A DNA stretch of 33,524 bases from positions 1-33,524 of the IMG/VR virus record IMGVR_UViG_3300021197_001832; one strand, 5' to 3'. The number at the start of each line of letters is the position of its first letter. Within the stretch, counting starts at the first letter, position 1. Under the pieces are notes generated by a model. That model was given only the letters and a program-made list of their open reading frames with translations, was not told the origin of the DNA and ran no database searches. Made by a program: the position numbers and the translations under genes. The stretch comes from a virus. This document shows positions 9 through 33,047 of this stretch, one piece after another.

Positions 9-1037
9 ATGGGTAATAGAACAATGGCGTTAAACAAGGCGAAAGAATTAGCATGGGCAATAATGGTAGATAGGGGTATGGACTTTGATTCATGTAGACA
101 CAAAATGAGAGGATTCTACAGCAGGTCCCGTTCGATTAACGATGAGGAAATGAAAGACCATGTGTCTCGAATACCTGCCGTGGGGGATCTACTTTATGAT
201 GACAATATCATCTCCAGATTTGAAAAATCCTTCGCAGGTTGGATACAGAGTAACGATCTTAATTCCTGCAGTGGACTTGAAAATTTTCAACCAGACATAA
301 GTCAAGGTGCCACACAGGCCTTTGACAGTTTCTATCTGAGACACCGTGGTCGTAAACTGAGGATGTTCGCGGGTGAGTATCTGTATCACATAGTTGTAGC
401 AAAACAATTAGGGATAGAATGGTCATTCCTTGACAGTGCAGACCAATTAGGTGAGGACGACGCCCTGATTCTCAGTATCCCATTCTGTGACACAGGAAAT
501 TTAGATAATGAGCTGGATCAAATACTCCGGACCTGTGAGGACAAAGGAGTGCCGGTGCTTTTGGACTGTGCTTACTACACTATCTCTAAAGACATACACC
601 TCGACGTAAACTTCAAATGCATTGACACAGTGACCTTCAGTCTAAGTAAAACTTTTCCAATAGCCCATGCGAGAATAGGAATGAGATATACTAGACCAGA
701 AATACAGGATGGACAGAAACTGCACAGCAATATCAACTACGACAACAGGATCAGTGCTGGCATAGGTCTGCACTTTATCGATAGATTCCGAAGTGATCAC
801 GTGTACAAGAAATATCAGTCATTATACAAAGCAGTGACAGACTACCTAGAGTTGGAGCCCAGCCAGACCATTATATTCGCGGAGGGCGATAATGAATGGG
901 AACAGTATGGAAGACGTGACATCCTGCAGGCGTACGGGCTGGATCATGACCAATCCATGTACAGAAACAGAATTTGTGTCACGGAACTGTTGGAAAACGA
1001 GATATTAACAAGAAGGATGATAGATGAAACAAATTGA
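9..1037 (+). CDS. PLP-dependent fold-type I (aminotransferase-like) protein, paralogue 1
   Basis: Probably a pyridoxal-phosphate enzyme of 342 aa. The segment SLSKTFPIAHARIG (about 211-224) matches the class I/II aminotransferase pattern S-x-S-K-x7-R-x-G, so Lys214 would carry PLP and Arg222 would bind its phosphate. Asp186 in LLDCAYY fits the aspartate that pairs with the pyridine nitrogen, and SQGATQAF (99-106) fits the substrate or phosphate loop. The reaction is unknown; I see no feature naming a substrate. It is paralogous to the protein at 1485-2570 along most of its length. The chosen ATG follows GGTGA; an in-frame ATG at 24 is an alternative and fits the paralogue alignment. Its end overlaps the next gene by 14 nt, implying coupled translation. 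Fold assignment fairly sure, activity not. Confidence 0.72.
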   Translation: MGNRTMALNKAKELAWAIMVDRGMDFDSCRHKMRGFYSRSRSINDEEMKDHVSRIPAVGDLLYDDNIISRFEKSFAGWIQSNDLNSCSGLENFQPDISQGATQAFDSFYLRHRGRKLRMFAGEYLYHIVVAKQLGIEWSFLDSADQLGEDDALILSIPFCDTGNLDNELDQILRTCEDKGVPVLLDCAYYTISKDIHLDVNFKCIDTVTFSLSKTFPIAHARIGMRYTRPEIQDGQKLHSNINYDNRISAGIGLHFIDRFRSDHVYKKYQSLYKAVTDYLELEPSQTIIFAEGDNEWEQYGRRDILQAYGLDHDQSMYRNRICVTELLENEILTRRMIDETN

Positions 1038-1509
1038 TTTTAAATTTAAAAATATTAACACTAGCACTGAAAAGAAGCCAACGTTGGCAGTGGTTATAAA
1101 CGATGTAAAATTATTAGAGGCAGAAGTTAAAACAAGCATGAGCACCCAGTTCACAGAGAGGTCGGGTAACAATCTGTTGCAAGTATATTTCGTGAACAAA
1201 CAGGACAGTGACACGATCACAGATGACCAGCAAAACATTATGAAGGACATGAACTTTGAATTGGAAAGTGTCGTAATAGATGGTGTGGACATCAAGGAAT
1301 TGGTATGGGGAGGAACATACGTTACTGCTAAAGAGAAAATAGACTCATGTCTGTTCTTTGGCCCAAAGGGACACTTCGAGCTCCAATTCGAAATGCCGGT
1401 ACTTAGGTGGACGTTAGAGCAGAACCATCTCAAAAACGGCAATGATCCAAACTGGCAGGAGGACTATAACAATTACACAGAAGCATGGAAAAGACTGAAC
1501 CAAAACTAG
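1024..1509 (+). CDS. Hypothetical beta-rich protein, paralogue of 32565-33047
   Basis: Function not recognised. The 161 aa protein reads as alternating beta-strands (KFKNI, LAVVIND, LLQVYF, FELESVVIDGVDI, HFELQFEMP) ending in RWTLEQN. It shares layout with the protein at 32565-33047: a short strand with I-N-D near residue 30, the I-D-x-[VI]-D-I-x-x-L-V core near 90, and G-x-[FW]-x-[LF]-x-F...P...W-x-L-E near the end. That pattern would fit a jelly-roll or carbohydrate-binding-like sandwich, but this is inference. It lies between two PLP-like paralogues, overlapping both (14 nt upstream, 25 nt downstream), so the three are probably made together. Confidence 0.7.
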   Translation: MKQIDFKFKNINTSTEKKPTLAVVINDVKLLEAEVKTSMSTQFTERSGNNLLQVYFVNKQDSDTITDDQQNIMKDMNFELESVVIDGVDIKELVWGGTYVTAKEKIDSCLFFGPKGHFELQFEMPVLRWTLEQNHLKNGNDPNWQEDYNNYTEAWKRLNQN

Positions 1510-2570
1510 ACAAGATAAGAAGCATAGCATGGACGCTGAGCATGGCCAGTGGCAAGAGGTGTCTGGATGTTCCTGGCGAGTATGTGTGGGCCTATCCAGG
1601 AAGTGTCGACAAGGTCAACATGGATTTTGATAATGTTAGGCAACGTTACAAGAGTATATTCAGCAGTGGGAACAGTATCAAGGATCCAGAATTAATTCAG
1701 TTCATACAAAAAATAAATTTAAACAAACACTTGCTGGATCCATGGATTGTTGAGAAATATGAACAGGGATGGATGGAGTGGATCAAAAGATCGAACGGGA
1801 AGAACTATGCCCTCAAGAACCTAGAACTGTTCAGCCACGCTTGTTACAGCCAAGGCACCCAGGAATCGTTCCTAAATTTCTACATGATGAACCGTAACAA
1901 GCGTTTCAGAGTTTTCAAGGGTGAATATTGGTGGCATATGGATATTTGGTCGAAATTGGATTACAGATGGTCATACATAGAAGATGATGACATACGAGAT
2001 GGCGATATCTGCATAGTTAGTTGTCCCTTTGCACTGTACGGAAGGAAACATAAGATGCTGGATGAACTGATAGAAAAATGTGAGAGGTTGGGAGTTGAAA
2101 TTTTATTAGACTTCATCTACTTGCCTAACAGCATGAACAAGACAGTGGATATGGACCTCTCTGCATCTTGTATCAAGCAGATAACTTTCAGCCTAAGCAA
2201 GACATTCCCAGTGCAGTGTGCCAAGATCGCTCTGAGACTGACCAAACACAAACTGAGTGATCCCATGCAGATGAGCAACGATGAGAACATCAGTAACAGG
2301 TTGGCGGCAGGATTGGGTTTTGAAATAATGAACAACTTTCCCCTGGACCACATGACAAACAAATACAGAGATCAACAGTCAAAATGGTGTGATATCATGG
2401 GACTTGAAAAGACTAATGTGGTACATTTCGCATACGGGCCACACTACCATAAAAAGACCAACACAGAAACCAACTTCTGTTCACCCTACAACGTGCAGGA
2501 TGGCAGGTATAACCTCGGAATGCTGTATGAGAATCATAAACTGCTTGAAAGGGTAGGCCTCGATGAATAA
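1485..2570 (+). CDS. PLP-dependent fold-type I (aminotransferase-like) protein, paralogue 2
   Basis: This 361 aa relative of the protein at 9-1037 shares FSLSKTFP (Lys239 would bind PLP), the Asp209 strand ILLDFIY, the SQGTQESF loop and the (N)MDFD N-terminal block. Compared with paralogue 1 it carries an insertion of about 22 residues (roughly 24-45). The phosphate-binding Arg eight residues after the lysine is Lys here (Lys247, in CAKIALR), and the following Gly is Ala, so PLP binding may be altered. It may have diverged in substrate or become a non-catalytic partner, for example in a heterodimer; this is inference. It begins inside the previous gene and overlaps the next by 8 nt. Confidence 0.68.
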   Translation: MEKTEPKLDKIRSIAWTLSMASGKRCLDVPGEYVWAYPGSVDKVNMDFDNVRQRYKSIFSSGNSIKDPELIQFIQKINLNKHLLDPWIVEKYEQGWMEWIKRSNGKNYALKNLELFSHACYSQGTQESFLNFYMMNRNKRFRVFKGEYWWHMDIWSKLDYRWSYIEDDDIRDGDICIVSCPFALYGRKHKMLDELIEKCERLGVEILLDFIYLPNSMNKTVDMDLSASCIKQITFSLSKTFPVQCAKIALRLTKHKLSDPMQMSNDENISNRLAAGLGFEIMNNFPLDHMTNKYRDQQSKWCDIMGLEKTNVVHFAYGPHYHKKTNTETNFCSPYNVQDGRYNLGMLYENHKLLERVGLDE

Positions 2571-2877
2571 GAAGTTTGGAAAAGTAAACATAAAGAGAGT
2601 ATCACCAAGTTTAGACACAGTACCAGATGACTGTGGATACATGCAAAGGTTCCAGTACAACGTTGACATGAACAGCAATGGTGTGATGAGCGAGTGCATA
2701 GATTGGTGCCAAAGGAACTGCGAAGGCAAGTGGGGTTGGTGGTTCGAGCCCGCGGGAGAGATTGAAAATCCCAATAACCACTGGGAGGACCAGAACGCCT
2801 ACATGAGTTTTGAAATCAAACGAGATGCGACTAGGTTCTGGATGTCGGTGGGAATACAAAACAGTGGTGGGAAATAA
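2563..2877 (+). CDS. Hypothetical 104 aa protein rich in Trp and Cys
   Basis: Not recognised. The protein has three cysteines (in DDCGY, SECIDWC and RNCEG there are four Cys in all) and a tryptophan cluster around GKWGWWFEP, with NHWEDQNAYMSFE and RFWMSVG following. The pattern suggests a small compact beta-containing domain in which aromatic residues pack or bind a ligand. There is no signal peptide or membrane segment. Its ATG overlaps the end of PLP-like paralogue 2, so it belongs to the same translational chain. Confidence 0.66.
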   Translation: MNKKFGKVNIKRVSPSLDTVPDDCGYMQRFQYNVDMNSNGVMSECIDWCQRNCEGKWGWWFEPAGEIENPNNHWEDQNAYMSFEIKRDATRFWMSVGIQNSGGK

Positions 2878-2891
2878 GCATAATTAATAGT

Positions 2892-3227
2892 ATGAAACCA
2901 TTTGAAATAACTGACAGTGCAAAAGCACAGATAGAGAGATTACTCGAGAAGAACACGGGCAAGTACGCCGTGAGCCTGGCGGTGCTGGGTGGAGGATGTG
3001 CAGGATTCAAATATGAGTGGGGATTCGCCGACACCAAAGAAAGTGTCGCTGAAGGCGATCACATTGAGGACTGGGGCACAGGCAGGTTCGTTGTGGACGA
3101 GACTTCACTGCTGTATGTCATGGGCACCAAGATCGACTGGGTGGAGGAGACCTTTGGGTCACAGTTTGAGATATCCAATCCCAACAGCTCAAGCTCGTGT
3201 GGTTGCGGAGAATCGTTTGGCATATAA
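2892..3227 (+). CDS. IscA/HesB-type iron-sulfur cluster assembly protein
   Basis: An A-type Fe-S carrier of 111 aa, close to the usual length (E. coli IscA has 107). It opens with ITDSAKAQIERLL, the typical A-type start, and has the three ligand cysteines in the right places: Cys36 in GGGCAGFKYEW, and Cys103 and Cys105 in SSCGCGESF. Such proteins bind Fe or [2Fe-2S]/[4Fe-4S] clusters and pass them to client enzymes in the cytoplasm. No client is evident in the window. The TAA shares one base with the next ATG (TAATG), so the downstream gene is coupled. Family call is secure; phage role is inferred (maintaining Fe-S loading during infection). Confidence 0.9.
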   Translation: MKPFEITDSAKAQIERLLEKNTGKYAVSLAVLGGGCAGFKYEWGFADTKESVAEGDHIEDWGTGRFVVDETSLLYVMGTKIDWVEETFGSQFEISNPNSSSSCGCGESFGI

Positions 3228-3970
3228 TGGATACCGCTTTCATAATAGGCAACGGTGAATCAAGAAATATTTTTCCAATAGATAAACTAAAAGGACACGG
3301 CGTGATATATGGTTGTAACGCCATATACCGAGACCATCCAATGCTGTGTGATCACATAGTGGCGGTGAATCCTCCCATGTACGAAGAACTGGCCCAGTGG
3401 CACAACAACGGCAAGGAGTCTCCACACATCCACGGTCCACAAGACATCAGCAAATGGAACTACATCTGTGAAGGCGACCATGAACATGATGTGCCAGATG
3501 GCCTAAAGATCTACAGGGTATGGCGTGGTGGTGACGTCAAGAAAGGTGGCAAGATTAAAACAAATGATTTCAGTAAGGCACGAGGTTCTGGTTGCAGTGC
3601 GATTTTGATGGCCGCGGAGTCTGGAATAAAGAACGTGGTGATAATGGCATTTGATATCATGGGTGCCCAGCAGTGGGAGATGGACACACCCAGCAGGACA
3701 CAGAACAACATATACAAGAATTCAATCAACTATCCAGACAGGGCCAGCATGAAGGCCTATCTCAAATACGAATGGATGTACCAACTGAGGCAAACATTCC
3801 GAAAGTTTCCTGGAACAAATTTCTATTTTATTAATCGCAAGGAATACCTCGAAGGCAATCCATTCCTGCGTTGGTACTTCGATCAGCCAAACATCAAGTG
3901 TGGCATATATGCTGACCTGCAGAGATGGATAACAGGATCACGTGATGACATCAAATGGAAACAGTTATAG
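3227..3970 (+). CDS. DUF115/MptE-like or sialyltransferase-like protein
   Basis: The N-terminus AFIIGNGESRN followed by GVIYGCNAIYRDHP resembles the nucleotide-binding start of DUF115/MptE-like and phage sialyltransferase-like proteins, which act in glycan or motility-related modification. GSGCSAILMAAESGIKNVVIMAFD (about 131-154 from this start) fits the second half of that fold. Length is 247 aa from ATG 3227; I prefer this start over the longer frame because it gives a TAATG junction with the IscA-like gene and begins directly with the conserved strand. The substrate is unknown. It could act with the glycosyltransferase-like protein at 30616-31809 on surface or virion glycans (inference). 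Confidence 0.55.
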   Translation: MDTAFIIGNGESRNIFPIDKLKGHGVIYGCNAIYRDHPMLCDHIVAVNPPMYEELAQWHNNGKESPHIHGPQDISKWNYICEGDHEHDVPDGLKIYRVWRGGDVKKGGKIKTNDFSKARGSGCSAILMAAESGIKNVVIMAFDIMGAQQWEMDTPSRTQNNIYKNSINYPDRASMKAYLKYEWMYQLRQTFRKFPGTNFYFINRKEYLEGNPFLRWYFDQPNIKCGIYADLQRWITGSRDDIKWKQL

Positions 3971-15945: not shown

Positions 15946-16389
15946 ATGGGACAACTAGAAGACTTACAAGCAAAAGGATTTGGATCACACGGTGGCAAGG
16001 AATACACTGTTGATTACGACATAACGCCACTCAAGAAGAGAGTGCTAGTTTCAGACATGCACTTCGGTGAGACAAAGACCAAGGGCGGAATCATACTCAC
16101 AGACGACGACGGATCAGAATCAGGAATACATCCTAGATGGGGTAAAGTTTATGCCATCGGTGACCAACAGGAAGACGTCAAAGTCGGAGAGTGGGTCATG
16201 GTGTCACATGGACGTTGGAGCAGAGGATTCAAGATCAAGAAAAAAGGTGTTGAACTGGAAGTGAGAATGATTGACGAGAATGACATCCTGTTGGTGTCAG
16301 AAGACGAACCGGTTCAGAACAGAACGCAGGCGGGTTATGTCAACACGGGTGGTATGCAACAGATGACCAAACTACCTGGCAATGACTAA
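15946..16389 (+). CDS. GroES-like co-chaperonin (gp31-like role)
   Basis: 147 aa. Residues ~28-125 follow the Cpn10 fold: KKRVLVSDM, ETKTKGGIILTDD (the mobile loop region with its hydrophobic GGI-[IL]-L), HPRWGKVYAIGD, VKVGEWVMV, and IDENDILLV, equal to the closing beta-strand of GroES. It should cap host GroEL during folding of phage proteins, as T4 gp31 does for the capsid protein. It is longer than GroES (97 aa), with an N-terminal extension and a polar C-terminal tail (~120-147) whose role is unclear. The 8-nt overlap with the next gene implies coupling. Confidence 0.82.
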   Translation: MGQLEDLQAKGFGSHGGKEYTVDYDITPLKKRVLVSDMHFGETKTKGGIILTDDDGSESGIHPRWGKVYAIGDQQEDVKVGEWVMVSHGRWSRGFKIKKKGVELEVRMIDENDILLVSEDEPVQNRTQAGYVNTGGMQQMTKLPGND

Positions 16390-17040: not shown

Positions 17041-18081
17041 ATGACACAACGTTTCGGTTTCTGTTGCAAATGGCTTAATGACACCAGCGAGTTTGGTGGC
17101 ATGAAAGTGAACGCTAAGGACAGGGAACTCAACGGCAGAAGTACAACCATGCGTTGGCTTCGTGAACACAAGGACGAAGCAGAGCAAAGACAGTGGGACA
17201 TCATGACCCACAACACACTCGCCGCACGTAGGTTGATACAACGTGTTGGTACACTGCCACCCGAACGCAGGATGGTGAGGCTGGGTAGCGAGATGCTACA
17301 GGGCTACACAGAGAAGGACTGGAAGTCATGGTGGCAACAACCTGACATACAGAGTCATTTAGAGAATCTATTCGCACCCGTTGGTGAGATGGCGAGGAAA
17401 CTAGATGTCAAGATCAGTTTCCATCCAGGACAATTCTGTGTGCTGTCGAGTGCAACACCAGACATAGTGGAACGTAGCATAGAAGAATTTGAATACCATG
17501 CGGACATGGCAAGATGGATGGGATTTGGCAAGAGCTTCCAAGATGGTTGCAAGATAAACGTACACATCTCAGGCAAGCAAGGACCAGATGGTATTATAAA
17601 GGCACTGCCTAGGTTATCGCCTGAAGCAAGGAACCTTATCACCATAGAGAATGACGAGATGAGTCATGGACTAGATCAGTCGTTGATGTTGGAAAAACAT
17701 CTAGCATTGGTACTAGACATACACCACCATTGGATCAGAGATGAGGAATACATTGAAGCAACAGATGACAGGGTAAAACGTGTGATAGATTCGTGGCGTG
17801 GTGTGAGACCCAGTATGCACTATTCATATTCAAGGGACGAACACCTTGCAGTGGCAGGACTAGGTGATAAAACACACACGGAGATGCATGACATCAAGAT
17901 GTTGCTGGAGCGTGGTTGCAAGAAACAGAAACTGCGGGCACACTCGGACCTATTACCAAACACAAAAGTAAATGACTGGGCATTGAGTTTCTCAGAAAAC
18001 TTTGACATACAGGTAGAGGCCAAAGGAAAAAACATGGCCACAGAACAATTATATAGACAATACCTAGAAAATTCTGTATAA
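17041..18081 (+). CDS. uvdE: UV DNA damage endonuclease (UvdE/UvsE family)
   Basis: 346 aa, full length for the bacterial family. It nicks DNA 5' to UV photoproducts and other distortions, starting alternative excision repair. The TIM-barrel metal site is visible: N-terminal RFGFCCKW, HPGQF (His128), NVHISG (His175), TIENDE (Glu203, Asp205), LVLDIHHH (Asp226, His228, His229) and MHYSYSRD (His260). The conserved SxxxxD and C-terminal EAKGKNMA also fit. It is transcribed from its own host-type promoter, which argues for early expression; UV repair of phage DNA at the sea surface is a reasonable role. T4 instead uses the unrelated DenV. Confidence 0.9.
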   Translation: MTQRFGFCCKWLNDTSEFGGMKVNAKDRELNGRSTTMRWLREHKDEAEQRQWDIMTHNTLAARRLIQRVGTLPPERRMVRLGSEMLQGYTEKDWKSWWQQPDIQSHLENLFAPVGEMARKLDVKISFHPGQFCVLSSATPDIVERSIEEFEYHADMARWMGFGKSFQDGCKINVHISGKQGPDGIIKALPRLSPEARNLITIENDEMSHGLDQSLMLEKHLALVLDIHHHWIRDEEYIEATDDRVKRVIDSWRGVRPSMHYSYSRDEHLAVAGLGDKTHTEMHDIKMLLERGCKKQKLRAHSDLLPNTKVNDWALSFSENFDIQVEAKGKNMATEQLYRQYLENSV

Positions 18082-18105: not shown

Positions 18106-19302
18106 ATGAAAATACTATGCGTATTATACGACGACCCCAAAGGCGGAATGCCTGAGAGTTATCCACTTACGGATCTACCCAAGTTAGAAAAGTATCCAGA
18201 CGGTATGACACTACCATCACCAAAAGGCAGAGATTTTAATGCGGGTGAACTGTTAGGTTGTGTATCTGGCGAACTTGGACTAAGAAAGTTTCTAGAAGAT
18301 GCAGGACATGAACTTGTTGTGACTTCTAGCAAAGATGGTGACGACTGCGAAGCAGACAAAGAGCTGGTAGATGCAGACGTTGTTATTTCTCAACCGTTTT
18401 TTCCTTACTATCTGACAAGAGAAAAAATGGAGAAAGCAAAGAACCTTAAGATGGCAATCACGGCAGGTATCGGATCTGATCACGTGGACTTACAAGCGGC
18501 TATGGATCACAAGATTGATGTTGTAGAAGTGACTTACTGTAATTCAAGATCAGTTGCTGAACACATCGTGATGATGATAGTTTCTATGGTCAGAGATTAT
18601 CACACCCAACACGCAATCGTTAACGCAGGTGGTTGGAATATTGCTGACGCAGTACAAAGATCATATGACGTTGAAGGTATGCACATAGGTACAGTTGCGG
18701 CTGGACGTATTGGCTTGGACGCACTGAGAAAAATGAAACCATTTGATGTACATCTACATTACTTTGACAGACACAGACTACCTGAAGCAATAGAGCAAGA
18801 GTTGAATCTTACTTTCCATGAGTCAGTGGAGTCAATGGTCAAGGTATGTGACGTTGTGACAATCAACTGTCCACTACACCCAGAGACGGAAAACTTATTT
18901 GATGCTGAAATGATAAGCAAGATGAAAAAAGGTGCTTACATTGTCAACACTGCGAGAGGCAAGATCTGTAACAGAGAAGCCATCGCAGATGCATTGAAAA
19001 GCGGACAACTGTCTGGTTATGCAGGAGACGTTTGGTTCCCACAACCAGCACCAAATGATCACGTTTGGAGATCAATGCCAAATCATGGTATGACACCACA
19101 CACATCAGGAACATCACTATCAGCACAGACAAGATATGCTGACGGTGTTAGAGAGATACTGGAATGTATGTTCGATAACACACCAATCAGGGATCAATAC
19201 CTAATTGTACAGAACGGTGAACTTGCTGGCATGGGTGCCCACAGTTACAGTAAAGGAACTGCAACAGGTGGATCTGAAGAGGCGGCAAAATATAAAAAAT
19301 AA
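18106..19302 (+). CDS. fdh: NAD-dependent formate dehydrogenase
   Basis: 398 aa, nearly the length of Pseudomonas sp. 101 enzyme and alignable without a large gap. It oxidises formate to CO2 and reduces NAD+. All residues I can check sit at the expected numbers: Ile122 and Asn146 (formate site), the AAGRIG turn (198-203), Asp221 (selects NAD over NADP), Arg284 (NTARGK), Asp308, Gln313 (WFPQPAP), His332 and Ser334 (TPHTSGT). The long N-terminal loop (DDPKGG, YPDGMTLP) and the terminal GAHSYSKG-T-ATGGSEEA are specific to formate dehydrogenase rather than generic D-2-hydroxyacid dehydrogenases. Metal-free and cytosolic. Own promoter and ribosome site suggest a moron-type metabolic gene. Confidence 0.93.
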   Translation: MKILCVLYDDPKGGMPESYPLTDLPKLEKYPDGMTLPSPKGRDFNAGELLGCVSGELGLRKFLEDAGHELVVTSSKDGDDCEADKELVDADVVISQPFFPYYLTREKMEKAKNLKMAITAGIGSDHVDLQAAMDHKIDVVEVTYCNSRSVAEHIVMMIVSMVRDYHTQHAIVNAGGWNIADAVQRSYDVEGMHIGTVAAGRIGLDALRKMKPFDVHLHYFDRHRLPEAIEQELNLTFHESVESMVKVCDVVTINCPLHPETENLFDAEMISKMKKGAYIVNTARGKICNREAIADALKSGQLSGYAGDVWFPQPAPNDHVWRSMPNHGMTPHTSGTSLSAQTRYADGVREILECMFDNTPIRDQYLIVQNGELAGMGAHSYSKGTATGGSEEAAKYKK

Positions 19303-25191: not shown

Positions 25192-26055
25192 ATGAAAGAT
25201 TATTACAAGGTCCTAGGTGTAGGCGAGACCGCCACCACAGAGCAGATAAAGAAAGCATTCAAGGACATAGCCAAGAAAGAACACCCAGACAGGGGTGGCA
25301 ACAAGGACAGGTTCCAAGAGGCCAGTGAAGCACACGACACACTGAAAAATTCACAGAAACGACACGACTACGACACACAAAGAAAGTTTGGTGGCAGTGG
25401 ACAGGGACAGCACCCGTTCTTTAATGAAGACATATTTGGAGATTTCTTCTCAGGATTCAGTGGCGGAGACATGGACTTCAATGGAAGATTTAACTTCCAG
25501 GGAAATCCAAACATGCAAACAAAGACTTTTAGATCAAGACCACAAGCAAATCGTAATATACAGGTAAGGATGGCCATATCAATCAAAGAGGCCATGATGA
25601 ACAACGAGAAGACCATCAACTACAAACTTCCTTCGGGTAGAGAAGAGTTCGCAACAGTCAAAATACCGGCAGGTGTGCAACACGGAGTGACATTCAAGTT
25701 CGCTGGCATGGGAGATGACTCGATTAAAAATGTACCTCGTGGTGATCTACTTGTACAAATGAGTGTGTTGGATTCAGATGGATACACAAGGAAAGTTAAT
25801 GATCTATACACCGACAAGACCATCGACTGTTTCCAGGCCATAAGGGGTCATGAGTTAAAATTAAAGACACTGGAGGACAGTGTGATAACGGTCAAGGTGC
25901 CTGCAGGCACACAGCATGGAACATTATTGAGTGTAAAAGGTAAAGGAATGCCAGTCCACAGGACATTAAATATAAGAGGAAATCTTTACATTAGAGTTTT
26001 GGTACTGATACCACAATTATCAACAGCAGACCTAAAAAAGATAAAGGACTTATAA
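25192..26055 (+). CDS. DnaJ/CbpA-like co-chaperone (type II J-protein)
   Basis: 287 aa. J domain DYYKVLGVGETATTEQIKKAFKDIAKKEHPDRGG with the HPD tripeptide at 31-33, a Gly/Phe-rich linker (FNEDIFGDFFSGFSGGDMDF), and two beta substrate-binding domains (KIPAGVQHGVTFKFAGMGDD; VKVPAGTQHGTLLSVKGKGMPV). There is no CxxCxGxG zinc finger, so it is of CbpA type. It would stimulate host DnaK ATPase and deliver clients. The stop shares one base with the deformylase start, and ClpA-like follows, giving a folding/proteolysis operon from one host-type promoter. Confidence 0.9.
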   Translation: MKDYYKVLGVGETATTEQIKKAFKDIAKKEHPDRGGNKDRFQEASEAHDTLKNSQKRHDYDTQRKFGGSGQGQHPFFNEDIFGDFFSGFSGGDMDFNGRFNFQGNPNMQTKTFRSRPQANRNIQVRMAISIKEAMMNNEKTINYKLPSGREEFATVKIPAGVQHGVTFKFAGMGDDSIKNVPRGDLLVQMSVLDSDGYTRKVNDLYTDKTIDCFQAIRGHELKLKTLEDSVITVKVPAGTQHGTLLSVKGKGMPVHRTLNIRGNLYIRVLVLIPQLSTADLKKIKDL

Positions 26056-26564
26056 TGATAGAATTGTTTTCATACCCACACCACACACTAGAAACAGTCA
26101 GTACACCGTGGGACTGGAAGACAGATACCATAGAACATCACGCAGACCTCAACAAGTTTGAACATGAGATGATACAGTTCATGAAGGATGAGAGGGGCTT
26201 AGGACTTGCCGCTAACCAGATAGGCATTACCAAAAGATTCTTTGCTATAGGACACGAGTCGTTTGACACAATCTCAAAACCTGCTATAATATGGAACCCA
26301 AAGATAATAAAGTCAAGCAAAGAAAAAGTCATAGATGTAGAAGGTTGCTTGAGCTTTATGGATGTTTGGATAAAAGTGGAGAGACCAAGAAAAGTTGAAG
26401 TGCAATATGAATTATCAAATGGACAACTACACATGGCAGAGCTTGACGGCATGGAGTCGAAGTGTTTCCAACACGAGCTTGATCACTTGGACGGTATCAC
26501 TTTTAACAAGCGAGTCTCAAAACTGAAATGGGACATGGCAAAGAAAAAAGCACGAAAAAATTAA
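26055..26564 (+). CDS. def: Peptide deformylase
   Basis: 169 aa, usual bacterial length. It removes the formyl group from new N-terminal methionines. Motif 1 GLGLAANQ (48-55), motif 2 EGCLS (96-100, Cys98 metal ligand) and motif 3 QHELDHLDG (139-147; His140, Glu141, His144) are intact. Unlike the very short deformylases of some marine cyanophages, the C-terminal part is present (KRVSKLKWDMAKKKARKN). In the same operon as the DnaJ-like and ClpA-like genes. Confidence 0.93.
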   Translation: MIELFSYPHHTLETVSTPWDWKTDTIEHHADLNKFEHEMIQFMKDERGLGLAANQIGITKRFFAIGHESFDTISKPAIIWNPKIIKSSKEKVIDVEGCLSFMDVWIKVERPRKVEVQYELSNGQLHMAELDGMESKCFQHELDHLDGITFNKRVSKLKWDMAKKKARKN

Positions 26565-26791
26565 AAAAAGGGAAAAGGACTAAAGTATGGAAGATATTAA
26601 ACGGAACCTACAACAAGCAGACTCCAATACAGAAGGACGTGGAGAGATTAATTTGTGCAATACAACAGGAATTAGAATGGGACAAGAAGGACATAGCAAC
26701 ATATATAAAGATACAACAAGGCAACATAGATTGGAGTGGAGATGTTAGAAGCAAACGAAGGACTAGAAAAAATATTCGAAGACGCAGTTAA
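26528..26791 (+). CDS. Small basic ORF between deformylase and ClpA-like gene
   Basis: 87 aa, very basic at both ends, with VERLICAIQQELEWDKKDIATYIKIQQGNIDW as a plausible folded middle. It overlaps the upstream gene by 37 nt and the ClpA-like gene by 50 nt. The 177-nt gap between the flanking genes would otherwise be empty. No family recognised; the exact start is uncertain, and the overlap is larger than elsewhere in the window. Confidence 0.45.
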   Translation: MGHGKEKSTKKLKKGKRTKVWKILNGTYNKQTPIQKDVERLICAIQQELEWDKKDIATYIKIQQGNIDWSGDVRSKRRTRKNIRRRS

Positions 26792-29093
26792 AGAGGCGGA
26801 AAAGAGAAAACACGAATACGTGACCATAGAACACGTTCTACTTTCATTGGTCAAAGACAAAGTAATAGGAACCACACTAACAGAATTCAAAATTAATGTT
26901 GGGGCATTGATTAAAGACATAGAAGATTATCTTGATACAAAATGCAATGACATAGTGTCCAAGGGTGAAAATCCAGTAGTCCCAAGAAAGACCGCGTCAC
27001 TGGAGAGACTAATGAACCGAGCATTCACACAGGCACTGTTCCAAGGTAGACAAGATGTGACTTCGATTGACATACTGATCAGCATATTCGCAGAGAAGAA
27101 AAGCTATGGTGCATTCTTCCTTAAGAAACATAAAGTGGACAAACAGGATCTAATGGATCTCGTATCTACAGAGACCATACTGGACGAGGGAATGGCATCA
27201 ATGGGTGGACCACAGCAACCCGGTGGTGAACAAAAATTAAGACCCAATCAAGCAGATAGAATATTAAATGCTTATTGTGAGAACTTGAATCAAAAATATC
27301 TTGACAAGAAGATTGATCCAGTGATAGGTCGAGAAGAAGAAACAAACAATTTAAAACAGATATTAGCAAGAAGAAACAAGAACAATGTACTGATAGTGGG
27401 TGATCCTGGTGTTGGTAAGACAGCAGTTGTGGAAGGACTTGCTAGAAGGATTGCAAAGAACAAAAAGGATATACCCGAATATTTGAAGGATCATATTGTA
27501 TTCAGTTTAGACGTCAACAGCTTGATTGCAGGAAGTAAATTTAGAGGTGACTTTGAGGAGAGATTGAAAATGATCGTTAACGCATTAGATCAAAAAGGCA
27601 AAACAATATTATTCATTGACGAAGCACACATGATCGTTGGTGCTGGCGCAACAGGACAAGGCAATAACATGGACATGGCAAACATGTTAAAACCTGCATT
27701 ATTAAAAGGATCGATCAAAGTTGTTGCTTCTACCACTTGGGAAGAATACAGAAAGTATTTCGAGAAGGATAGAGCATTGATGAGGAGATTCCAAAGACTG
27801 CAAGTTGGAGAACCTTCGAAGGAAACATCTATTAAGATTCTGAAAGGTGTGAAACAATATTATGAATCATTTCATAAATGCACTATAACCGATGAGGCCT
27901 GTGAGGACGCAGTAGATTATTCAAGCAAGTTTATAGCAGACAAGAAACTGCCGGACAAGGCGATTGACATCATAGATGTTGCCTGTGCAAGACTGAGATT
28001 GAATGGCACCAAGGACGGTGTAATTGATCATGACGAAATCATACATGAGTTAAGTGTTATGACAGGTATCAGTATAGAGCAATTGAGTCAGAAACAAGCA
28101 AGTAATTTGAAAACTCTGGAAGAGAAGATGAAATTACAGGTGTTTGGACAGGACAAAGCAATAAACACAATCACAGACAAGATACTTGTTGCAAGGGCAG
28201 GACTTAAAAACCTAAACAAGCCAGTTGGATCATTCCTATTCCTTGGACCAACAGGTTGTGGTAAGACCGAGACTGCAAGACAACTGGCGAAAACACTAGG
28301 TGTAGAACTTGTAAGATTTGATATGTCAGAATATCAAGAGAAACATTCTATTGCAAAACTGATTGGATCACCTCCGGGCTATGTAGGCTATGAAGATTCT
28401 AACATGGGTGGTGGTATGTTTATTAACGAAGTTGAAAAGAATCCACACGCAGTTGTGTTGTTTGATGAGATAGAGAAAGCACACAGAGATGTATCTAACA
28501 TGTTGCTACAAGTAATGGACTACGGAACAGTTACAGGAAGTAATGGCAAGAAAGCAGACTGCAGAAACATCACACTTATAATGACATCTAACCTAGGTGC
28601 AGAAGCTATGGAAAGAAACAACATAGGGTTTGGTAAGAGCGAAAGAGAAGGCGAGGACGACAATGCACTTAAGAAGTTCTTCCCACCAGAGTTTAGGAAC
28701 AGACTGGACGCAGTGATCAAGTTTGATAAACTAGGTGAGAAAACAATGAAATCTATTGTCAAGAAGTTCTTGCAAGAACTTAACACAATGACCATGGAGA
28801 AAGATGTTGAGGTAAATGCAACAGATCCAGCACTTGACTACTTGGTCAAGAAAGGGTTTGATGCTAAACTGGGTGCGAGACCCTTACAGAGAATCATAGA
28901 CGAAGAGATCAAGAATCCTCTGTCCAAGATGATATTGTTCGGGGAACTTAACGAAGGTGGAATGGTAGAAGTCACGCTATCAGAAGATGTTGTTCCAAAA
29001 CTTACAGTAGAATTCAAAGCAAACAAGATCAGTGCAAAAATAACCAATAAAGAGAAAAAAAAATCCAAAGTAAAAAATGAGAAAACATCATAA
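26742..29093 (+). CDS. ClpA-like AAA+ unfoldase
   Basis: 783 aa from ATG 26742 (a GTG two codons earlier is possible). Clp N domain with EKRKHEYVTIEHVLLSLV; AAA domain 1 with Walker A GDPGVGKT (~220-227) and Walker B ILFIDEAH (~289-296); AAA domain 2 with GPTGCGKT (~502-509) and VVLFDEIEKAH (~571-581); FFPPEFRNRLD near 650. No long ClpB-type middle coiled coil. NNIGFGKS (~626-633) holds an IGF tripeptide where ClpA has its ClpP-docking IGL loop, so it could feed substrates to host ClpP. No ClpP is encoded here. Last in the proteostasis operon. Confidence 0.9.
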   Translation: MLEANEGLEKIFEDAVKEAEKRKHEYVTIEHVLLSLVKDKVIGTTLTEFKINVGALIKDIEDYLDTKCNDIVSKGENPVVPRKTASLERLMNRAFTQALFQGRQDVTSIDILISIFAEKKSYGAFFLKKHKVDKQDLMDLVSTETILDEGMASMGGPQQPGGEQKLRPNQADRILNAYCENLNQKYLDKKIDPVIGREEETNNLKQILARRNKNNVLIVGDPGVGKTAVVEGLARRIAKNKKDIPEYLKDHIVFSLDVNSLIAGSKFRGDFEERLKMIVNALDQKGKTILFIDEAHMIVGAGATGQGNNMDMANMLKPALLKGSIKVVASTTWEEYRKYFEKDRALMRRFQRLQVGEPSKETSIKILKGVKQYYESFHKCTITDEACEDAVDYSSKFIADKKLPDKAIDIIDVACARLRLNGTKDGVIDHDEIIHELSVMTGISIEQLSQKQASNLKTLEEKMKLQVFGQDKAINTITDKILVARAGLKNLNKPVGSFLFLGPTGCGKTETARQLAKTLGVELVRFDMSEYQEKHSIAKLIGSPPGYVGYEDSNMGGGMFINEVEKNPHAVVLFDEIEKAHRDVSNMLLQVMDYGTVTGSNGKKADCRNITLIMTSNLGAEAMERNNIGFGKSEREGEDDNALKKFFPPEFRNRLDAVIKFDKLGEKTMKSIVKKFLQELNTMTMEKDVEVNATDPALDYLVKKGFDAKLGARPLQRIIDEEIKNPLSKMILFGELNEGGMVEVTLSEDVVPKLTVEFKANKISAKITNKEKKKSKVKNEKTS

Positions 29094-32401: not shown

Positions 32402-32583
32402 AATTAGTCTGCACAAAAAATGGCATGACAAAAACTGCAGATGTTATGCAACACGATGACAAGTACATCAAGTGTGTAGTGGAAGGAACTCAGATCGCTA
32501 TAGAGCTGTTCCGGGATGACGTAAATATTCCATATACAGGACACGCAGTAGGATTGGAATTTGAATGGCAACCGAAAAACTAA
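32389..32583 (+). CDS. Hypothetical small protein (64 aa)
   Basis: MDTIKLVCTKNGMTKTADVMQHDDKYIKCVVEGTQIAIELFRDDV and onward reads as a small beta-barrel (short strands with turns). No family recognised. It overlaps the genes on both sides (13 and 19 nt), continuing the coupled chain. Confidence 0.6.
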   Translation: MDTIKLVCTKNGMTKTADVMQHDDKYIKCVVEGTQIAIELFRDDVNIPYTGHAVGLEFEWQPKN

Positions 32584-33047
32584 AATTTAAACTAGAACTA
32601 TACGCCACAATGTGGGACAAATCACCGCATGTGGAGATCTTGATCAACGACAAGAGCTATTTCAAAGGAGATGTCACAAGCACAAACGACAAATCACAGT
32701 TGATAGAGTTCGAACATGAGTGTGAAGAGGGCAAGGATCACGAGCTGACCATTAAAAGATCAGGCAAAGACAAAGGGCAAACAGTGATCAATGACAAAGG
32801 CGATATTTTAAAGGATCAACTGCTACACATCAAGAACATAGAAATAGACGAGATCGATATCGGGGCACTGGTGTACGAGGGCGTCTACACACCGGAATAC
32901 CCAGAACCATGGGCCACACAGCAAAGAGAATCGGGTGCAAAGTTACAAGAATCATTCAAGAATGTCACTGCTATGGGTCATAACGGCACATGGCAATTCA
33001 AATTCACATCACCTTTCTACATGTGGTTGCTTGAGAACCTTTATTAA
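32565..33047 (+). CDS. Hypothetical beta-rich protein, paralogue of 1024-1509
   Basis: 160 aa, acidic. Strands LKFKLELYATMW, HVEILINDKSYFKGDV, LIEFEHECEEGKDHELTIKRSGKDK, QLLHIKNIEIDEIDIGALVYEG and GTWQFKFTSPFYMWLLENLY. The H-x-L-x-I-x-x-x-G-K-[DN] hairpin followed by a D-x-x-L-x-I-x-x-I-x-I-D-[ED]-[IV]-[DN]-I strand is typical of small carbohydrate-binding-like sandwiches, but binding is unproved. The 1024-1509 protein shares the second half of this layout. Confidence 0.67.
   Translation: MATEKLKFKLELYATMWDKSPHVEILINDKSYFKGDVTSTNDKSQLIEFEHECEEGKDHELTIKRSGKDKGQTVINDKGDILKDQLLHIKNIEIDEIDIGALVYEGVYTPEYPEPWATQQRESGAKLQESFKNVTAMGHNGTWQFKFTSPFYMWLLENLY

Follow-up and report, generated by a model that had tools for sequence, protein, structure and literature searches.

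What do two diverged PLP-enzyme paralogues, set on either side of a gene for a small protein, do in a phage? The question arises at the very start of a 33,524-base IMG/VR virus record (the window, meaning the whole stretch of DNA analysed), where the cluster P1-beta-P2 lies on the + strand. The features of the window that bear on it are the following.

P1, 9..1037, + strand: compact fold-type-I PLP enzyme of 342 aa (pLDDT 87.8; structure matches to fold-type-I enzymes of class I/II)
beta, 1024..1509, + strand: partner protein of 161 aa, overlapping both P1 and P2
P2, 1485..2570, + strand: paralogue of P1, 361 aa
f22, 2563..2877, + strand: conserved downstream neighbour of 104 aa that differs between cassette types
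IscA-like gene, 2892..3227, + strand: A-type iron-sulphur carrier (PF01521, E 3e-14), flanking the exchangeable cassette on its right
f5, 3230..3970, + strand: weak sialyltransferase-like match (phrog_4603), right-hand flank, preceding tail-fibre-like repeat genes
beta'', 32565..33047, + strand: second beta-family gene, 160 aa, homologous to beta

P1 and beta overlap by 14 nt and beta and P2 by 25 nt, and overlaps are also seen in relatives. The start of P1 is ambiguous, as a second ATG at 24 suits the starts of its homologues equally well as the ATG at 9; an in-frame stop occupies positions 3-5 upstream of P1, and the contig itself begins at base 1. In the window's group of contigs, a glycosyltransferase-like gene borders the trio on one side and, on the other, one small gene separates it from the IscA-like gene; tail-fibre-like repeats adjoin. 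Elsewhere in the window, the same phage encodes an NAD-dependent formate dehydrogenase (18106-19302; 659 bits to NF005750, cut-off 329) and a peptide deformylase (26055-26564), which releases formate. Family matches also identified a ClpA-like ATPase (26736-29093) and a UvsE-like endonuclease (25192-26055), while DnaJ-like (15946-16389) and GroES-like (17041-18081) proteins were recognised by eye.

Predicted fold and active sites of P1 and P2

The alignment of P1 with P2 spans 301 residues at 33% identity (167 bits, E 2e-53), so that their paralogy is certain. As the original prediction had pointed out, the SLSKTFP motif is common to both proteins, with the lysine at K214 in P1 and K239 in P2. 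Its phosphate-site residues were also named correctly, R222-I-G224 of P1 being aligned opposite K247-I-A249 of P2. AlphaFold2 models of P1 and P2 as single chains, each made from a 24-sequence alignment, reached mean pLDDT values of 87.8 and 73.2, respectively. For both models, the best solved-structure matches listed by Foldseek were class I/II PLP enzymes of fold type I, and the top VIA-align Z scores were 22.6 over 287 residues for P1 and 20.2 over 307 residues for P2. The proposed fold-type-I PLP fold is thus present in both models when compared with the PDB, and the lysine is invariant among the homologues. The structure names no reaction, because approximately 50 PDB entries were nearly tied, within Z ~1; for this reason, naming the reaction after the top fold matches (Pad-1, RohP and OvoB) was abandoned.

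Searches of Pfam, PHROG and NCBIfam with P1 returned weak generic matches only (valine-pyruvate transaminase, CobD, HisC and SepSecS), all of them below cut-off. P1 scored 15.6 bits against PF00155, where the gathering cut-off is 19.7 (E 0.009), and the best relative reached E 2.5e-6. P2 did not match PF00155, and nothing of interest was found for it in Pfam or PHROG. The first impression that neither protein resembles a specific known aminotransferase therefore held, since no such family was matched above cut-off. Since P1 has a PLP fold, its match to an 'endonuclease' family (phrog_8420, E 5e-4) was disregarded.

Alignment with HisC and between the paralogues assigned K214 of P1 as the Schiff-base Lys, together with D186, Y189, the phosphate Arg R222 and R321 at the carboxylate-Arg position. 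In P2, K239, D209, Y212 and R341 are kept, and K247 replaces the phosphate Arg. The named Lys, Asp, Tyr, phosphate-site and C-terminal Arg residues are invariant within each of the two 24-member alignments, and P2 additionally conserves the motifs SNDEN..NR and RYNLG..EN. An Arg in the phosphate-binding position after the Lys occurs in P1 (R222), in P2-type proteins that lack a neighbouring P1 and in a family of shorter PLP enzymes described below; the P2 of the window has K247 there. Because the Lys, the Asp and the carboxylate-type Arg are conserved in P1 and P2, it can be argued from the sequences that both sites would be chemically competent, and both proteins presumably bind PLP. By sequence alignment, the Asn that contacts PLP-O3' is replaced in every branch, by C160 in P1, A183 in P2 and an aromatic residue in the short family, so that the reaction need not be that of an ordinary aminotransferase.

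Among the closest known kinds are the class I/II aminotransferases and their relatives (PF00155; HisC, OvoB, RohP, Plu4 and C-S lyases), whose fold resembles that of P1 and P2 with Z scores of 19-23 over ~280-310 residues. The S-x-S-K Schiff-base Lys, the pyridine-site Asp, the Tyr (in P1 and P2), the phosphate Arg (in P1) and, in the position that binds the carboxylate, a C-terminal RI/RYN Arg are shared with this kind. By contrast, P1 and P2 are only ~8-18% identical to the listed structures, compact and linked to beta, and have the O3' Asn replaced. Fold and residues belong to a superfamily that is already known. What appears to be new is that the enzymes are constantly paired with beta, that P1 and P2 are arranged together with a residue change tied to the partner, and that the distribution in the collections searched is confined to viruses. 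Open-access literature on heterodimeric aminotransferases, PLP hypermodification and phage aminotransferase islands contained nothing on the cassette, although it may have been mentioned earlier elsewhere.

P2 conservation and its association with P1

P2 had been regarded as the modified member of a pair with one active copy. This view was not upheld as it was phrased, since mean column identity in the same 24 phages is 73% for P2 and 54% for P1 and the Lys, Asp, Tyr and C-terminal Arg are retained in P2; its conservation rules out a decaying copy. A related proposal, that P2 has given up PLP chemistry and now serves P1 and beta as a scaffold with a structural or regulatory role, would fit the change of the phosphate Arg to K247, the loss of the next Gly and the lack of any meaningful Pfam match for P2. 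However, P2 is the more conserved of the two proteins, Lys239, Asp209, Tyr212 and Arg341 are invariant, and related single-copy enzymes retain the same residues plus the Arg, so we regard this proposal as improbable.

Homologues with a single copy plus beta exist, and the P1/P2 pair is therefore not obligatory. In 16 contigs (L036-L051, with 12 distinct proteins), beta is accompanied by a P2-type gene and P1 is not adjacent. P1 was not found in the six whole records of this group that were searched; most such contigs are fragments, so P1 could lie elsewhere in the group. The largest P1-less contig (117.8 kb; L119) had a distant PLP-like protein, and P1 was not found in it. The position of K247 is occupied by Lys in all 36 distinct P2 proteins that occur with P1 and by Arg in all 12 that occur without it. 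Two further positions follow the same division: position 244 is Gln in 36/36 and Ala or Gly in 12/12, and position 184 is Leu or Met in the 36 and Arg in the 12. The P1-less P2-type proteins form one clade (support 100/89), so the Lys/Arg association represents a single evolutionary change. AU test p values of 0.085 and 0.27 did not separate gain from loss of P1, and rooting of the P1/P2 tree with proteins of Pelagibacter phage Mosig and L119 was unsuccessful, the end branches exceeding 6 changes per site.

Since the change in the P2 phosphate site accompanies the second copy, we read it as a sign of co-adaptation between P1 and P2. The association favours coupling of the two enzymes, yet it amounts to one evolutionary change. 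Heterodimeric fold-type-I enzymes are known from the serine palmitoyltransferase type, in which one subunit is Lys-less. P1 and P2 are likewise two paralogous PLP-fold subunits in one genome, and the defining feature of that type is missing here because both keep the lysine. Judged from the sequences, a P1/P2 heterodimer is the arrangement that we tentatively put forward as probable, ahead of two independent homodimers. The latter, a less likely but serious contender, would split substrates or successive steps between them and share beta, and K247 would then reflect an adjustment of specificity or cofactor affinity and not pairing. Such an arrangement would agree with the presence of the Lys, Asp, Tyr and C-terminal Arg in both proteins, each of which is strongly conserved in its own way, and with the O3' Asn being replaced differently in the two, by Cys in P1 and by Ala in P2. 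In addition, a single-copy P2-like enzyme occurs in 12 distinct relatives, suggesting that the P2 type functions without P1. On the other hand, the strict link of K247 and Q244 to P1 and the fixed, overlapping P1-beta-P2 order would be more natural for a complex.

The beta family and its partner enzymes

Beta, previously passed over as a bystander, turned out to be a constant partner, occurring with the P2 type, with the short PLP family and with a B12-binding radical SAM enzyme. In the first set of loci, each beta overlaps P2. A second set of small proteins, beta', is homologous to beta (hhalign 99.7%, E 2e-26) at only ~20% identity, and about a dozen contigs have beta' overlapping the B12-binding radical SAM gene. 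Exceptions to the overlap with an enzyme gene are the second copy of the window (32565-33047) and another copy, located where its contig ends. K59 of beta is conserved in 52 of the 53 representatives of the beta superfamily (<70% identity); the sole representative with Asn at this position is L198:3567-4001. An additional divergent beta-like gene, L164:1788-2168, keeps the conserved Lys and has a helicase-like gene downstream. Relatives of beta'' with 62-76% identity are present in about 25 other contigs. The beta'' of the window has no PLP or radical-SAM neighbour, and in the one contig inspected fully such a gene lies between genes for proteins of 114 and 118 aa. Some beta'' genes stand alone, which counts against a substrate-presenting unit. 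No convincing sequence match of beta to solved structures was obtained.

A scan with the second beta copy of the window led to the shorter PLP family (270-297 aa), which profile comparison relates to P1 and P2 (99.5% and 99.1%). Beta is directly upstream of 35 of the 36 complete short PLP genes, mostly overlapping them, and Lys176, Arg183 and Asp148 are invariant (36/36). The recurring unit is thus beta plus one PLP enzyme. An amidinotransferase-like gene directly follows the short PLP gene in 20/36 cases and is within the locus in 24/36. Its product gave profile matches to HsvA (3e-7) and arginine:glycine amidinotransferase (AGAT; 3e-6), and combines the GATM/StrB1 profile with the catalytic His-Asp and Cys, H204, D206 and C335 being invariant. 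By an approximate motif count, a gene for a 150-260-aa protein containing an HxD motif is no more than 2.5 kb away from the short PLP gene in 22/36; the label Fe/2OG-oxygenase-like is based on HTD...H...R-x-S motifs. Judging by these neighbouring genes, a group with an amino or guanidino function would be tailored step by step.

Because the beta family also pairs with an unrelated enzyme, the B12-binding radical SAM protein, the most likely role of beta is to hold the substrate or present it, which is a guess from the pairing pattern. Our preferred reading of the whole locus, held with reservation, is an exchangeable cassette in which beta would present a substrate to compact PLP enzymes and the P1/P2 pair would most likely be a heterodimer. 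Its core unit would be beta plus one compact fold-type-I PLP enzyme, and P1-beta-P2 would be one allele of this unit. The PLP gene would have been duplicated in the lineage of the window, P1 retaining the standard phosphate Arg and P2 exchanging it for Lys while keeping the catalytic Lys, the Asp and the carboxylate Arg. P1 and P2 would work together, most likely as a heterodimer, on the beta-bound substrate. An amino-acid-like group would probably undergo amine transfer or elimination, and the product may feed later tailoring (guanidinylation, hydroxylation, methylation and glycosylation) in the cassettes that have such genes. That a complex forms, what beta does, and which reaction and substrate are involved are all inferred from these patterns.

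Alternatively, beta could itself be the substrate or carrier, K59 bearing a group that is modified in turn by the PLP, radical-SAM, amidinotransferase and oxygenase enzymes. The presence of K59 in nearly all representatives despite the low beta/beta' identity, and the pairing of beta with two unrelated enzyme types, would be expected of a carrier. However, a conserved Lys may be structural, and a separate beta copy for each enzyme would fit a dedicated subunit equally well, so we consider this reading unlikely. Slightly less likely still is its broadest form, in which beta, with its conserved lysine, would be a carrier or target peculiar to phages. Swappable enzymes would build a modified group on it, as a virus-only biosynthetic system exchanged as cassettes. 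The swappable set would then comprise a PLP enzyme or P1/P2 heterodimer, B12-radical SAM, amidinotransferase, Fe/2OG oxygenase, and glycosyl- and carbamoyltransferases.

Exchange and distribution of the cassette

The order P1-beta-P2 is identical in every IMG/VR contig with P1, including contigs of 148 and 354 kb, and the pair order is thus conserved in related phages, a comparison that the original prediction had proposed. In many T4-like contigs, the trio follows families read as gp47 and gp46, the identity of gp46 being separately supported. It was not found behind gp46 in PA5oct, which is among the nearest cultured phages by gp46. A Rieske-type oxygenase-like ORF (L015:601-1869, by eye) lies upstream of gp46 in a trio-bearing phage.

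In the window's group, the flanking genes on both sides are much more alike between contigs than the cassette is. Between L088 and L005, identities on the left are 99% for f18, 97% for f13, 71% for f8 and 87% for f9; they fall to 55% for P1, 49% for beta, 52% for P2 and 66% for f22, and then rise to 97% for f23 and 96% for f5. L048, which is without P1, gave a similar profile against L005 (f9 88%, beta 48%, P2 50%, f23 96% and f5 96%). The pattern is reversed between L048 and L046, where f18, f9 and f5 are 72%, 71% and 67% identical, yet P2 is 92% identical. The IscA-like flank is mostly 77-98% identical to that of relatives whose cassette is ~50% identical. At the same site, the 117.8-kb contig carries the distant PLP-like gene together with an IscA-like gene and a radical-SAM gene paired with beta', and its beta-P2 is located elsewhere, adjoining carbamoyltransferase-like and sugar-aminotransferase-like genes. 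This contig also has an ORF resembling glutamine amidophosphoribosyltransferase (L119:11348-12802), which begins MCGIVGIYN (by eye). By sequence comparison, then, the cassette is swapped between phage genomes that are otherwise very similar.

An en masse exchange of a gene cluster between otherwise nearly identical phages has been described for CP220 and CPt10, T4-like Campylobacter phages, whose module contains radical-SAM genes, an amidinotransferase and sugar-transferase-like genes (PMC2853527). The amidinotransferase profile made from cassette relatives matches CPT_0086 of CP220 at 5e-20, and no beta or P homologue was detectable in the CP220 stretch searched. The phage collection yielded a single distant match for P1, in Pelagibacter phage Mosig EXVC030M, and nothing for P2, the distant PLP-like protein of L119, the short family or the flanking gene f8. 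The Mosig protein, the 'putative aminotransferase' Mosig_00079 (tblastn E 6e-3, 27%; profile 1.7e-17), is P1-like, and its gene is clustered with others of the oxygenase-like, FMN-reductase and tail-fibre kinds. It differs in being short (262 aa), and no beta was recognised in the stretch examined. Aquatic phages also encode the PLP enzyme AlaS (5-aminolevulinate synthase; PMC11480375), a metabolic enzyme that is recognisably bacterial and whose product is known, unlike the cassette described here, for which no bacterial homologue was detected. Two scans of GTDB with P2-type and short-P profiles, which used short peptide patterns and may miss distant homologues, returned none. So far, within the collections searched, the cassette occurs only in uncultured aquatic viruses of bacteria.

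That this block is swapped next to tail-fibre genes may point to a part in the contest or interaction with the host. Two odd 'aminotransferase-like' genes thereby become part of a system, so far virus-only, that is present in many uncultured aquatic phages. They also offer a testable case of a duplicated PLP enzyme that became a two-gene system, for which natural single-copy controls with the Arg form exist.
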